From positions 1-25,817 of the IMG/VR virus record IMGVR_UViG_3300010883_000392: a stretch of DNA of 25,817 nucleotides; one strand, written 5' to 3'. Both the position numbers and the translations under genes were made by a program. Under the pieces are notes generated by a model. The model did no database searches. It had not been told where the DNA came from and saw nothing but the letters and a program-made list of their open reading frames with translations. This stretch comes from a virus. Positions 9,332-18,607 of the stretch are shown here, piece by piece. Every line of letters begins with the position of its first letter. The stretch's first letter is position 1.

Positions 9332-12300
9332 CTATGTTGGTGTATCGTCAGGTGAAGGACCGGTCACCTCAAAGTCGGCTCCTGCATCTTTTAATTGTCC
9401 GGTCACGTGAGAAAAGCCTTGATCTGAAATGTACACTTTGCACTTTGCATTTGATTTTTCATTGGCGCCTTTTCCCGATTGCGTAGACTTTTTAGATTTG
9501 CCATCTTTATCAGCGGCCGCAACCCAGACGGCCGTGAGCCTTGTTTCGCCATGGCCGGGGGCGAAATCGTGTTCAGCCTTTATGACCATATAGTATCCAC
9601 CGACGCCCAAATCAGACAAATCAAACTTATCAACGTCATAGGCTCCCATGCTGGGTGCAAAGCCCTGCGGATCAACAAATATGTAGTTTCCCGGGAATGC
9701 CGCTACATTGGCGTAAGAAGTGATATGTACATCGTACAACTCTCTTAGTTGTAACAAGCCATCATAGCCGTCTTGTTCGTAGCGCACCATTGCCAGCGAG
9801 GGAGGGCTATCGGTTTTTTGTAGTGTGATGTTTTTAATAATTCCACGATTTTTACCAAGAACATAGTGCATGATACCTCTGCTCTCATCGTCGGAACGAA
9901 TACCATTCATGAGGTTTAGGGGCTGTGTTCTTCCGGCATGAAAAATAAAATAATTCATCTCTCTAGAGGGGCCAGGATTTGGTTTATTATAATACGCCTG
10001 GCCTTTGATGTTTAAAACGGGGAGACTAAGCGCTGAATTAGTGTTTAACCTGTTAAACTTGTTTTTGCTGCCCACGATCTGACTCGTGATCTCATCAGTC
10101 TTTGTATATTTTGGATAAGATGTTACCACAGATTCATAAAGCCTAACTTTTTGTTTAATTGAAAAGGGATAACAAGAATCTTCATTTAAGTAATTTTTTA
10201 TCAAATCGTTAAACAAGTCTTTCAAAAACTGGGTTAGTGGGTAGATCGCTTGATTCTTTTTGAGCAATTTGCTGGTTAGCCACTCAGAGAAATATTTTAC
10301 TGAAATCGGGATATCCGCAAAATTAACATAATAGGGTTTGCTGGTCCCGTGATCAACAATCTCAAGGGGTCCTAAAACTACTCTAAATTTTTTGAACTCT
10401 CGGGCAGCTTTTTTTAAACTATCAACTTCTATTTTTTTCAACGCAGGATCAATTCCGAGACTTTTATAGGCATTACCTCCGGATCCCGCGAGGCCTTCGG
10501 CGGTTTTTGTTAAACTGTTATCAAGGCTGCCCATAATAACGTTTAACATATCTCCAAGGAAAAAGAAGGGTAGCTGTATGCTGTCCATACCCGCTAAGGT
10601 CATTGCGGCCGCTAGCTGGTTTTTGTCGTCTTTTGATTTCTGAAGTTGTGATGCCATTGCGGCCTCAAGATCCGCACTCAAATTAAGACTAAGTTCTTCG
10701 CTACCTTTAGCGACCTTCCCGGCTAGTGGATAGGCCGGTCCTTGGGCCAAAACAGCTTTCAAATCTTCTCGTGTGAAGTTAAGAACGTGCACATAGCCGG
10801 CTTTGAACATTTGTTTAAATATATGTGAATGCATAGCTTGTTTATCTTTATCAACTTCTTTAACATCTTCACTTTTAACTTGATTAAGCAGTTCTTTGGC
10901 TTCGGCCGATTCTGTACATTTAACAGACTCATTTACAGTTTGAAATGCTAATTTTCTTGCTAACATTTTTATATTTGTGGGAACATGAGAGAAAATATTC
11001 ATTTTTGTCTTAGAGTAGTATTCTTCCACATAAGCAAGATATTCAATTGAAAAAGTTACACGCCCTAACTCATCAAATCCAAATTCATGTGTAACGGGTG
11101 ATAAATTGACACTAACAAAACTATCATCTAGGGCAGTTTTTATGCGTTTGGCCGGTGAGTTGCTGTTGCCTTGACTGGCCCAGCCAAAAACTGCTTTGAG
11201 TCTAAAATTTAGATCGTCATCAGCTTTAAAATTTTTAACTTTGACGCTTTTGCCAGTTTTTAAAGCTAAATCAATATATCTAAAAGTAACATTCTCTTTT
11301 TCAGTGTCTCCTTTTATTATCCTTGGCTTTAGCAGTTCATCAAAATCAGCAGCGTGCAATTTTAAAACTGCTTTAATGCAGCGTTTTTGCGCAAACATAT
11401 CTTGGCCATCAAAAACCAGATTAAACGAACTAATTCCGATCCCAAAGCCCCGCTTGTCTTTATTTTTTAACAAATCTGCAATATCGGCGCGGGAGGCATT
11501 TGAATCAAACGGTATTTCAACTTCTTTAACTGCGCGGACACTGTTAGCGTCCTGTATGCGATATAAACGGATTAAAGGTTGCATGGACGAAATCTCGGCA
11601 GGCGTAGCGTCAAAAAAGTCTCCTTGGGTACTGTACTGTGTTAGTTTGTTCATAAAACCAAAAGACTCTCCTTCCGCTATCAATGGGGCATTCGCCACAA
11701 GGCCACCTTCGCCACCGCCTCTATATGGTAATCGTCGACGAATCTTGGGCTCTCCGTCGTCATCTGCATCTTTCACAGTCGTATCATCTAAAGTCCTGCT
11801 ATAATTCGCTAATGTTGCTATCTGCCCCAATAAGATGCATTGTTCCTTATATTCAATAATAGGAACGGCAAAGAACTCATCGCCAGTCATAGCAAGGATG
11901 CCTTCGCTGGCAGCGGTGCGCTGTTCAGGAGTGCCGCCGCGGTGTCCGACGAGGGACTGGCCGGAGAGATTGCCGCGGCTGGTGTCCAGATCTTGGTTCT
12001 TTTTCTCATCAAGCTCTTTTGCGCATTTATCCAGCTGGGTTCCAGACTTGCCCATATTCTTTAGTTTTGCTAGCAGTCCAACCAGCCGCTGAAGTGGGGC
12101 CCGGTCTCCGCCGGCGGATCCGATATTCCTGGCTGCATTATATGCAGATCTGCGCATTGCTTCGATATTTTCAACAGATCCCTTGGCTTGAGCTTTTCCG
12201 GCGCCGGTTTCAACTACGGCGGCCTTTCCGCCGCCGGCCGCACCGAGCAATCCGGCGCTTCCCGCTTTATAACCGGAACGGTTACCGCTTTGAGAGCCAC

Positions 12301-12787
12301 GAGTCCAAGCTTCGGCCGCGTCACCCAGGATAGGAAGATTTGCAGGATAACCCGGGTTATTTACGGCATCCATGGTTATTTCTGCGTTGCCTTTGCCGGT
12401 AATAAGTTCAATTGCTTTGGTACCCCTACTCGCGACGGCCCGGGCTGGCCGGCGCGCCTCAAAGTCCGCGTCCACTTGTCCGGAAAGAATATTTTGGAGT
12501 GAGTTCTGCTCGTCTGTGTTGAGGGCTACGGTACCAAACAATTCAAAAGCTTCATTAACTGTGAATCCGCCAATGTCTTGATCTCCAATGGCGTGTATTT
12601 GGGCGACTACAGCATTGTATTTTCTGGCCTCTTTTGCAAAACATCCGGCCGATTCGTGAATTGCCGCACAATTTTTATTCAACAGCGCAGTATATTCTTT
12701 TGAAGAGCTAGCTAACGCTGGATTGCTGCTGTCAATATTTGCTTCGCTTAGGGCGCCCGCTGAAGTGCACTTTATTGCATCTGGCAT
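9332..12787 (-). CDS. Large (1151 aa) virion protein with a baseplate-hub-like C-terminal region
   Basis: This is the longest gene in the window. Residues 1-300 are rich in Ala and Gly (strongest about 150-230) and look flexible. From about 300 onward the sequence turns into alternating beta-type segments (for example IRLYRI and GISSFNLVFDG around 405-460). The last 200 residues include YNYFIFHAG-like and GGYYMVIKAEHDFAPGHGETRLTAVWVA-type segments that resemble the C-terminal part of gp27/gpD-type baseplate hub proteins. Proteins ending this way often sit at the tail tip, so a hub role is my inference. The tail is acidic and proline-rich (SPDDTPT). No lysozyme or peptidase motif is evident. 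It follows the LysM baseplate gene by only 3 bases. Confidence 0.6.
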   Translation of the reverse strand: MPDAIKCTSAGALSEANIDSSNPALASSSKEYTALLNKNCAAIHESAGCFAKEARKYNAVVAQIHAIGDQDIGGFTVNEAFELFGTVALNTDEQNSLQNILSGQVDADFEARRPARAVASRGTKAIELITGKGNAEITMDAVNNPGYPANLPILGDAAEAWTRGSQSGNRSGYKAGSAGLLGAAGGGKAAVVETGAGKAQAKGSVENIEAMRRSAYNAARNIGSAGGDRAPLQRLVGLLAKLKNMGKSGTQLDKCAKELDEKKNQDLDTSRGNLSGQSLVGHRGGTPEQRTAASEGILAMTGDEFFAVPIIEYKEQCILLGQIATLANYSRTLDDTTVKDADDDGEPKIRRRLPYRGGGEGGLVANAPLIAEGESFGFMNKLTQYSTQGDFFDATPAEISSMQPLIRLYRIQDANSVRAVKEVEIPFDSNASRADIADLLKNKDKRGFGIGISSFNLVFDGQDMFAQKRCIKAVLKLHAADFDELLKPRIIKGDTEKENVTFRYIDLALKTGKSVKVKNFKADDDLNFRLKAVFGWASQGNSNSPAKRIKTALDDSFVSVNLSPVTHEFGFDELGRVTFSIEYLAYVEEYYSKTKMNIFSHVPTNIKMLARKLAFQTVNESVKCTESAEAKELLNQVKSEDVKEVDKDKQAMHSHIFKQMFKAGYVHVLNFTREDLKAVLAQGPAYPLAGKVAKGSEELSLNLSADLEAAMASQLQKSKDDKNQLAAAMTLAGMDSIQLPFFFLGDMLNVIMGSLDNSLTKTAEGLAGSGGNAYKSLGIDPALKKIEVDSLKKAAREFKKFRVVLGPLEIVDHGTSKPYYVNFADIPISVKYFSEWLTSKLLKKNQAIYPLTQFLKDLFNDLIKNYLNEDSCYPFSIKQKVRLYESVVTSYPKYTKTDEITSQIVGSKNKFNRLNTNSALSLPVLNIKGQAYYNKPNPGPSREMNYFIFHAGRTQPLNLMNGIRSDDESRGIMHYVLGKNRGIIKNITLQKTDSPPSLAMVRYEQDGYDGLLQLRELYDVHITSYANVAAFPGNYIFVDPQGFAPSMGAYDVDKFDLSDLGVGGYYMVIKAEHDFAPGHGETRLTAVWVAAADKDGKSKKSTQSGKGANEKSNAKCKVYISDQGFSHVTGQLKDAGADFEVTGPSPDDTPT

Positions 12788-16879: not shown

Positions 16880-17218
16880 TTATTTTTGAGTTTGAAACGG
16901 GGAAAGTTGGGCCGGCATACTTGGGGAATTATCCGAAGTCAGTGTATGGGTGTTAGAACTCTTGGAATTACCACCACTTTTGCTTGCTTGCTCGATGGCC
17001 TCTTTTTCCATTTCAAGTTGTTTTATTAAACGCTTGGTAAACCAATCTCTAAGGCCGATCGGAAGATTGTAGGCCTCAGAAAATGACCAGCCTCCTGAAT
17101 ACTTTAAAAAGAAGAACTGCTCATAAATGCTTTCCATGTATTCATCGGTCAGGCCAAAAAAAGTCCGCACTAAGCGGAACCTCCATGTCCTGCTCGTAAT
17201 TACAGTCACTGCATTCAA
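16880..17218 (-). CDS. 51: gp51-like tail assembly chaperone part, probably made by frameshifting from the gp26-like gene
   Basis: This reading frame overlaps the gp26-like gene by 77 bases in another frame. The useful part starts at the T run (17155 downward): FGLTDEYMESIYEQFFFLKY, GGWSFSEAYNLPIGLRDWF and a helix with EMEKEAIEQ, then a Ser/Thr/Gln-rich tail. The only upstream ATG (17218) has no ribosome site, and the frame before the T run (TSRTWRFRLV) does not look like protein. This suggests the 91 residues after the T run are made as an extension of the gp26-like protein, giving a fusion of about 370 aa. The place directly before the tape measure gene is that of gpG/gpGT chaperones and of T4 26-51. 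Confidence 0.65.
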   Translation of the reverse strand: MNAVTVITSRTWRFRLVRTFFGLTDEYMESIYEQFFFLKYSGGWSFSEAYNLPIGLRDWFTKRLIKQLEMEKEAIEQASKSGGNSKSSNTHTLTSDNSPSMPAQLSPFQTQK

Positions 17219-17993
17219 AATGTTGTGTTAAATCAATGTTTGGGGAGGCGCCGCGATAAGCTAACCTTAAATGGCGAGAATCAGTAGATGGCATATTCTG
17301 CACAAGATAGTTAATTGAATCAATGTTGTTATCTCCATTGACTGCTACAATTAAACTAGACAACTGACGTGTAATTCCACGGTCTTTTCGTTGTTTTTTA
17401 TCCATCTCTGCGCCTGAACTAATTGTTTTCTCATCATAACCTCTTAAAAGGCCAAATGTGACAACAACGTTGGTTCTAGGAAGAGTAACGTCAAAAGTGC
17501 CATTACTGTTGTTGGTTATGTCCATTGTGTTTTCGCCATCACCAGTATAGACTGACGCATCATTTAAGTCAAAAGAATACGACTGATTTTCACCACATTG
17601 TGGACATGTAACCTTGGTTGTATAATCGTTGCCATATCCTGAGACGCGGGTTGCAATAATAATTGCGTTTCTATCGCCTACAAACAACGAATCGGGGTCA
17701 ATTCCCTTGTTTACAATTAAGCTGCCAATTACTCTATCAAGGGCGACACCTTTTTTAAGTAATGTTCGCGAAGTAAGCATATCTTCTTCTTTCGCCGTCA
17801 TTTGCTTAATTTCAATAGAAGACTCTCCACAAAGTGGGTGCCCTTCTGGGTAGTATTTACCCTGTGATGGTAATTCCACAAATTCTGTTGGAACTACAAA
17901 TGAGAAACCACCCGAGCCTTCGTTCATTGCCTGAACAGGGGGGGAAGTATCTTGTTGTTGAACGCCTCCTAAGCGATCTTGATTTCTAGACAA
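17142..17993 (-). CDS. 26: T4 gp26-like protein (T4_baseplate family) with zinc ribbon; probable tail assembly chaperone
   Basis: The 283-residue protein contains VVPTEFVELPSQGKYYPEGH (33-52), IEIKQMTAKEEDMLTSR (60-76) and FVGDRNAIIIATRVSGYG (104-121), a pattern I associate with T4 gp26-like proteins (T4_baseplate family) of T4-like marine phages. Two CxxC pairs, C130/C133 in TCPQCG and C261/C264 in ECSDCN, probably share one zinc ion. The start is TTG at 17993 behind GAGAGGTG, with no better in-frame start. The stop follows a seven-T run by four codons, so part of ribosomes may shift into the 51-like frame. It shares the tail tube transcript and precedes the tape measure gene. Confidence 0.8.
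   Translation of the reverse strand: MSRNQDRLGGVQQQDTSPPVQAMNEGSGGFSFVVPTEFVELPSQGKYYPEGHPLCGESSIEIKQMTAKEEDMLTSRTLLKKGVALDRVIGSLIVNKGIDPDSLFVGDRNAIIIATRVSGYGNDYTTKVTCPQCGENQSYSFDLNDASVYTGDGENTMDITNNSNGTFDVTLPRTNVVVTFGLLRGYDEKTISSGAEMDKKQRKDRGITRQLSSLIVAVNGDNNIDSINYLVQNMPSTDSRHLRLAYRGASPNIDLTQHFECSDCNYEQDMEVPLSADFFWPDR
17156..17162 (-). other. Candidate programmed frameshift site (seven T)
   Basis: On the coding strand the gp26-like frame reads GAC TTT TTT TGG CCT GAC CGA TGA. A +1 or -2 slip on the T run enters the open frame GGC CTG ACC GAT GAA, whereas a -1 slip meets a stop two codons later. A GGAGG sequence lies 17 bases upstream of the run and might act as an internal stimulator. Confidence 0.6.
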
Positions 17994-18022
17994 TGTACAC
18001 CTCTCGTTTTATTAAATTGTCA

Positions 18023-18607
18023 TTATATGTTAAAGAAACTTTTTCCACCGCCGGCTACCGCGACTGAGGGGTTAGCGGTTTCAACGCGGGCCCAATCGTA
18101 CATAAGCTCAACAGTAGTGGTAGTAAGCTCATCGTCACCATAGGATAATTGGCCAAGCTGAACGTCTTTAACAAATGCGTTCCAGAGTGTCCAAGTTTCA
18201 AGCGGCTTGCCATCAGAATCAATCTGAGTGATAATGACGGTACCAAGAGCACCAGCAGCCTTGGCTTTAGAAATAGAACCAAGGGAAGTTGCGTTAGCAG
18301 GGGGAGAATAACCGGAGAGCCTAACAATGTCGGAGAACGTTGCAGTGACATCTGGACTAACAGGGTCTACCATTTCAATGGAAACAGTGTTCCATGTAAC
18401 AGCGCCGGGGTAATAGAACTTGTGGTTTAGGTAAGCGTGCTCTACATTTTCAACAGTAAAACTGGGCTTTGCGCAGGTCTTGGCGTACCATGCAATGGCA
18501 CCACCTTGTTCAGCTTGAATTCCTTGGAATTCAACTGTAAATCTGAAATTTCTCTTTGGATCTTTGAGGGTTACGTCCTCGCCGAAGTTTGTTGACCAGA
18601 ATGGCAT
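18023..18607 (-). CDS. 19: Tail tube protein (T4 gp19 family)
   Basis: The 194-residue product should stack in hexameric rings to form the inner tail tube. NFGEDVTLKDPKRNFRFTV at the N terminus, AKPSFTVENVEHAYLNHKFYY (47-67) and VTWNTVSIEMVDP follow the gp19 pattern of a beta-sandwich with a long loop. LETWTLWNAFVKDVQLGQLS and the final TTTVELMYDWARVE form the conserved second half. T4 gp19 is 163 aa, so it is slightly long. The start ATG at 18607 has AGGAGA 11 bases upstream. A hairpin and the octamer ACTATTTA lie between the sheath stop and this start, giving it a separate late transcript that continues into the gp26-like gene. Confidence 0.9.
   Translation of the reverse strand: MPFWSTNFGEDVTLKDPKRNFRFTVEFQGIQAEQGGAIAWYAKTCAKPSFTVENVEHAYLNHKFYYPGAVTWNTVSIEMVDPVSPDVTATFSDIVRLSGYSPPANATSLGSISKAKAAGALGTVIITQIDSDGKPLETWTLWNAFVKDVQLGQLSYGDDELTTTTVELMYDWARVETANPSVAVAGGGKSFFNI

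Follow-up and report, generated by a model that had tools for sequence, protein, structure and literature searches.

Our comparative analysis identifies in a contractile-tailed phage a tail gene, lying between the genes for the tail tube and the tape measure protein, that very likely encodes a chaperone pair of the G/GT type through +1 ribosomal frameshifting. The window, by which we mean the whole stretch of 25,817 nucleotides that was analysed (positions 1 to 25,817 of IMG/VR virus record IMGVR_UViG_3300010883_000392), carries on its minus strand a T4_baseplate/gp26-like gene, here called G, whose end is overlapped in another frame by a conserved C-terminal domain, here called T. The frame relation and its conservation, the slip codons, a constraint at the level of RNA and the paralogy of T4 gp26 and gp51 are shown by comparison. 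All of our evidence is of this kind; the shift itself, its efficiency, the role of an upstream hairpin and the chaperone function are inferred.

The tail locus

The features of the locus are collected in Table 1. Both in the window and in annotated relatives, G sits between the tail tube and tape measure genes. It matches PF12322 with 57.7 bits (curated cut-off 24.5, E 1.8e-15; 57.1 bits in a second profile search) and carries two CxxC pairs. The presumed tape measure ORF has no Pfam or PHROG match; a tape measure protein is annotated at the same place in relatives.

Table 1 Features of the tail locus in the window
Feature	Position	Strand	Basis
Tail sheath protein, 982 aa	18670..21618	(-)	PF17482; PHROG 23 E 3.6e-63
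Tail tube protein (gp19 family)	18023..18607	(-)	PF06841 E 2.6e-7; PHROG 4542 E 4.6e-26
G, T4_baseplate/gp26-like gene, 283 aa, TTG start, zero-frame product	17142..17993	(-)	PF12322, PHROG 150
GGAGG, Shine-Dalgarno-like, constrained, role unsettled	17180..17184	(-)	GAG codon conservation
Hairpin CCGC-UUAGU-GCGG, candidate +1 stimulator, just 5' of slip site	17165..17177	(-)	synonymous constraint, folding vs shuffles
GTG in T frame, possible non-conserved independent start	17168..17170	(-)	sequence, relatives
Slip site TTT TTT TGG	17154..17162	(-)	TTT at P-site codon in 50/50 dereplicated close relatives
Zero-frame stop TGA, ending G if no shift	17142..17144	(-)	sequence
T, C-terminal domain, +1 frame only (GLTDEYMES...), 91 aa + stop	16880..17155	(-)	T-frame conservation from first post-slip codon
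Presumed tape measure gene, 834 aa	14321..16825	(-)	position and length

The TTG start of G and the AGGTGT upstream of it (17991-18002, minus strand) are identical in 45-50 of 50 dereplicated relatives; given this near-invariance, TTG is probably the true start of the gene. Sheath families are matched by approximately the last 310 residues of the 982-residue sheath, its N-terminal two thirds being extra or divergent. Elsewhere in the window, DNA polymerase A is possibly split between two overlapping minus-strand ORFs, of which the first translated (9322-8093) has no Pfam match and the second (8118-6934) holds the polymerase domain. An ORF of 1151 aa without a Pfam match (9332-12787) lies between the baseplate-like genes and the DNA polymerase.

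Translation probably enters a second frame at the T run

Read in frame, G ends GAC TTT TTT TGG CCT GAC CGA TGA, which places the slip motif 18 bases before the stop codon and the run of seven T at 17162-17156 (minus strand). A second ORF, in a +1 (or -2) relation to G, extends from 17218 to 16880, so that the joint reads FF-GLTDEYMES...; taking TGGC as one step yields a fusion of 370 aa joined as ADFF-GLTDE. In the window the slip context is C UUU UUU and a stop follows immediately in the -1 frame, so that a -1 slippery heptamer is lacking.

All 80 of the closest IMG/VR relatives (62-88% identical) share the junction GC(G/A)GA(C/T)TT(T/C)TTTTGG and the same frame relation. Among 50 dereplicated relatives, the T frame is interrupted by a stop within the 42 codons before the slip in 41, and within the 42 codons after it in none of the 46 sequences that could be tested; the two other frames contain stops in every one. 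Mean pairwise amino acid identity in the T frame of these relatives is 0.89 after the slip versus 0.41 before it, and 69% of the differences after the slip fall on the third position of T-frame codons. Furthermore, GLT is kept in the T frame from the first post-slip codon (G in 96, L in 96 and T in 90 of 103 dereplicated +1 loci), while the zero-frame residues that follow W vary (WPDR, WTN, WFN, WSN). The openness of the T frame, the step in identity and the position of GLT at the slip therefore indicate that ribosomes pass into the T frame at the T run. By comparison, the G/T frame junction at the seven-T run is real.

Slip motifs and the T domain

Loci from IMG/VR and GenBank were collected by similarity, and the counts given here are consequently not frequencies; dereplication left 103 +1 loci. 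With a T-domain profile built without T4, 291 of 293 records were classed: 257 as +1 with a shifty codon, 17 as -1, together with L095, whose -1 site lies further upstream than in the other -1 loci, and four as having a separate T (L196, L201, L234 and L235). The remaining classed records are truncated, are T4-type genes or, in the case of L226, have an internal stop in G. Distant relatives with 25-37% identity in G share the G/T arrangement.

TTT TTT TGG is the motif in 72 of the 103 dereplicated +1 loci, followed by TTT CTT TGG (16) and TTC TTT TGG (5), the rest consisting of a few UUU-C, UUU-A or UUU CUA forms. Among named phages, TTT TTT TGG is found in Microcystis phage Mel-JY01 and Rhodothermus phage RM378, TTT CTT TGG in Flavobacterium phage immuto, TTT TTT CAC in Bacillus phage SP-15, TTT TTT AGT in Listeria phage LIS04, TTC TTT CGT in Streptococcus phage GXN1 and CTG TTT CGC in Streptomyces phage BRock. 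UUU-Y or CUU-U is present in all classed +1 loci with the exception of one UUU-A (LIS04), and elsewhere in the same genes only 18% of Phe codons are of the UUU-Y kind. If the P-site tRNA moves by +1, tRNA-Phe on UUU meets UUU or UUC and a tRNA reading CUU meets UUU, which gives good pairing everywhere except at this single UUU-A. The PRFect paper (PMC10885494) ranks CCC and UUU directly below CUU for +1 slipperiness ahead of a stop codon.

GenBank annotations of the gap between G and the tape measure gene contain clipped T fragments or miss T altogether (L081:4833-4943, L084:4845-4964, L091:3912-4034, L089:3758-3940), and would be better given as joined coding regions.

The family of T itself is only weakly indicated. 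It matches DUF6760 (PF20546) with 17.9 bits against a cut-off of 27, and 15 of 34 T members do so at E<=0.1 (best 0.001). A structure model of T alone is a helical hairpin (pLDDT 71), for which a structure search returned no significant fold match. DUF6760 and T4_baseplate genes are neighbours in prophages and extracellular injection systems. Scans of bacterial genomes found no relatives of the two G proteins searched, so that prophages and extracellular injection systems fall outside our comparison, and a search of plasmids for relatives of G found nothing.

A constrained hairpin before the +1 site of the window's clade

In the clade of the window, four codons close to the slip are nearly fixed, contrary to how the gene uses codons elsewhere: GAG in 50/50 (34% elsewhere), CCG in 47/50 (13%), GCG in 49/50 (15%) and TTT in 50/50 (78% elsewhere). 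Together, they yield GGAGG and a CCGC-N5-GCGG stem that is separated from the slip codons by two bases. When the 24 nt before the slip site were folded and compared with 100 synonymous shuffles, the mean MFE was -6.98 versus -1.88 kcal/mol in the window clade (0/100), with a smaller excess of -3.98 versus -2.47 in the other +1 loci (0/100); segments further upstream in +1 loci show less excess or none, and there is little consensus folding directly 3' of the +1 site. At -1 loci no excess of hairpin folding was seen at the site (-1.08 versus -1.03 in shuffles). In its fixed geometry, the full stem is present in 31 of 33 window-clade relatives, compared with at most 3 in 500 shuffles; outside the clade it occurs in 26 of 70 +1 loci, where shuffles average 12 and never exceed 22, which is moderate support. 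Other +1 clades have hairpins at this position too, of unrelated sequence (L083, L089, L186, L264 and L275).

On E. coli 70S ribosomes, an upstream hairpin has been shown to enhance frameshifting by +1 and to weaken that by -1 (PMC6321510), and the absence of the hairpin from -1 loci is what this behaviour would predict. From this match we infer that the hairpin may be a +1 stimulator. GGAGG alone lies 20 nt from the P-site codon, a path that shortens to approximately 7 nt with the hairpin formed; it may extend the hairpin stem, and its role is unsettled.

Relatives with T in the -1 frame and loci with a separate T

In 18 loci, L095 included, mostly of jumbo phages, U UUU UUC/U precedes a T domain that lies in the -1 frame. 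The carriers are PA5oct, Atu_ph07, 121Q, CBB, RAS14, an uncultured phage (LR756511) and IMG/VR kin. Sites for -1 and +1 occur at the same protein position, the ..FF end of G, and on the tree of G most -1 loci form one clade apart from the +1 loci. The deep branches of this tree are long and its root is unknown, leaving the direction of change between +1 and -1 unsettled.

The four loci with a separate T represent two events on the tree of G. In L196 and L201, T has an ATG of its own, a few bases beyond the stop of G, the sites reading TTC TTG TAT and TTC CTT TGG with the +1 frame closed. In L234 and L235, an ORF resembling a GIY-YIG homing endonuclease lies exactly at the G/T junction (L234:3203-3886); G ends TTC TTC TGG, and T, with its own start, is preceded by a repeated part of the G tail. 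In all four, where T has been freed with a start of its own, either the shifty site has disappeared or the frame behind it is no longer open.

T4 gp26 and gp51 as a probable duplicated pair

T4 gp26 and gp51 both match PF12322 over the full length of the profile (8.8e-64 and 3.9e-52). Together they form one clade on the tree of G (support 100/99), where deep branches are long, and comparison shows them to be paralogues sharing the G domain. In T4-type phages (eight gp51, seven gp26), gp26 stops at an end resembling ..FFELL, where the slip site would lie, and gp51 runs approximately 50 residues further. This tail, which gp26 lacks, can be aligned with T in register (hhalign P=5.5e-5, probability 66%), a result of modest strength. 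A held-out T model recognised two of the eight gp51 sequences below E 1e-3 (tails from Proteus and Acinetobacter phages; 1.5e-4 and 2.4e-4; Z=15) and the T4 gp51 tail itself weakly (E 0.02, Z=15). The shuffle control was mixed, in that a shuffled tail outscored the T4 gp51 tail in one of two models. Profile comparison of the full-length fusion with gp51 was colinear through the tail, again weakly (probability 22%, P=9e-4).

Because the paralogues share the G domain and only gp51 has the tail, gp26 corresponds to G and the whole of gp51 to G-T. On comparative grounds, it is likely that gp26 equates to the product made without a shift and gp51 in its entirety to the shifted fusion, rather than the two being equivalent frame for frame. 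Comparison likewise suggests that in T4 the frameshift has probably been replaced by gene duplication, after which only one copy retained the tail and the slip was lost. T4 gp51 is required for assembly and yet is absent from the particle (PMC3004832). The paralogy of gp26 and gp51 is implicit in Pfam, and we found no link from it to G/GT in the open-access literature searched; subscription papers were excluded and prior mention is possible.

Alternative explanations

T could instead be translated from a start of its own by translational coupling (GTG 17170 or ATG 17137), without any fusion. In support of this, GGAGG (17184-17180) lies 9 nt before the in-frame GTG in the window, most close relatives retain the ATG of EYM (17137-17135), seven codons past the slip, and in four loci T does begin at an ATG of its own behind the stop of G. 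However, the GTG is replaced in relatives by CCG, CTG, ACG, CGG or CAG, and the EYM ATG by ATA or ATT in L021, L022, L024, L042, L047, L058 and L080; the T-frame GLTxEY ahead of that ATG is conserved; and shifty codons are present at the junction in every classed +1 or -1 locus, the split loci having lost them or keeping them only ahead of a frame that is closed. A fusion-free origin of T is thus very improbable, although some independent initiation in the window, at the GTG behind GGAGG or at the EYM ATG, may occur and is not excluded. A shift of -2, as in phage Mu, fits the frame arithmetic and would allow perfect re-pairing on the TTTTTTT of the window. Against it, at UUC UUU UGG, UUC UUU CGU, CUG UUU CGC, UUU CUU UGG and UUU CUA a -2 movement lands on UCU, UGU, UUC or NNU, whereas +1 re-pairs well at these same variant sites, and almost nothing is left of this possibility.

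Slippage of RNA polymerase is another means by which the frames could be joined, as minority mRNAs with six T would put T in frame, and a run of seven T is in principle enough for such slippage. Sister loci with T runs of only four (TTCTTTTGG) or three (TTTCTTTGG, CTGTTTCGC) nevertheless carry the same T domain in an unchanged frame relation, and we regard polymerase slippage as virtually ruled out. A closer alternative accepts the +1 shift and assigns the hairpin and GGAGG to mRNA stability or to control of a coupled start. The hairpin constraint is indeed strongest in one clade, and GGAGG lies so far from the P site that it could act directly as a Shine-Dalgarno element only if the hairpin shortened the distance. 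Set against this, other +1 clades have hairpins of unrelated sequence in the corresponding position and -1 sites have none, in agreement with PMC6321510; on balance we lean away from this alternative and retain the hairpin as a candidate stimulator of the +1 shift.

A preliminary description, made from the sequence alone, had proposed a +1 or -2 shift at the T run, a role like that of G/GT and a link to T4 26/51. Comparison supports +1, slippage at the T run, the role and the T4 link; it disfavours -2, since the slip sites of several clades do not allow re-pairing after a -2 shift. Its claims that the downstream frame resembles protein only after the T run and that the fusion has about 370 aa held, as did its statement that -1 meets a stop at once, which is true of the window although jumbo relatives do have a -1 site. 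Two claims held only in part: the downstream frame was said to lack a ribosome site, which overlooked GGAGG before the (non-conserved) GTG, and to be gp51-like, which fits only the last 50 or so residues of gp51, the whole fusion being the counterpart of gp51. The alignment of homologues that it recommended found the T-run site and frame relation conserved among the closest relatives, with motif variants farther out. An independent downstream gene, one of the outcomes that it considered refuting, is confined to the four split loci. The other, a sequencing error in the T run, is excluded by hundreds of loci with the same junction. Overprinting without function was also dropped as a candidate, the T-frame conservation being too strong.

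Comparison with known systems and a model

As in lambda G/GT, the gene lies between tail tube and tape measure, a near-terminal frameshift would give a short product and a long fusion, and the downstream domain has no gene of its own; in lambda, however, the shift is -1, whereas here it is +1 (UUU-Y), with a PF12322 G bearing two CxxC pairs and an upstream hairpin. T4 gp26 and gp51, the hub assembly chaperones, share the PF12322 domain, and the C-terminal tail of gp51 is aligned with T, but they are two separate genes without a frameshift, divergent in T4 and in tandem (51 then 26) in RB43-type phages, and in the T4 order no longer lie beside the tube and tape measure genes. E. coli prfB (+1 at CUU UGA) offers the same combination of a P-site slip on CUU/UUU-U, a slow A-site codon and an upstream RNA duplex; it differs in that here the sense codon UGG takes the place of a stop, there is no autoregulation and the hairpin replaces a Shine-Dalgarno duplex close to the P site. 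The -2 tail chaperone frameshift of phage Mu is alike in function and position, and unlike in direction and slip chemistry, -2 failing for several clades here.

In the model that we favour, most ribosomes would terminate at TGA (17144-17142) and release G. A minority would pause with peptidyl-tRNA-Phe on UUU (17159-17157) and the slow zero-frame codon UGG (17156-17154) in the A site; the tRNA would re-pair one base forward, UUU to UUU, and GGC (17155-17153) would be read next to give the 370-aa G-T fusion. The hairpin, re-forming behind the ribosome and possibly acting with GGAGG, may favour the forward movement. By analogy with lambda G/GT, and without binding data, many copies of G and few of G-T would cover the tape measure protein, with the T tail recruiting tube or hub subunits. 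The same pair would be made by a -1 shift at U UUU UUC/U in the jumbo-phage relatives, and by duplicated genes, 26 (G) and 51 (G-T), in T4-type phages.

Implications

Missed or clipped T domains in many phage genomes give our findings a practical side. Furthermore, these loci constitute a natural set in which the direction of slip has switched within one homologous gene and an upstream hairpin accompanies +1, as in synthetic constructs (PMC6321510). T4 has long been listed as an exception without a G-T frameshift, and its gp51 is essential and functionally unassigned; reading gp26 and gp51 as G and GT, each from a gene of its own, offers a testable answer to both puzzles. It is a bolder reading, and one that we consider likely, that a single ancestral G/G-T pair has been kept across contractile-tailed phages while the means of making the long form has changed: +1 with an upstream hairpin, -1 without one, split genes (in one case via a homing endonuclease) and duplication into 26/51. 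If true, this would account for the listing of T4 as lacking a G-T frameshift and for the role of gp51.
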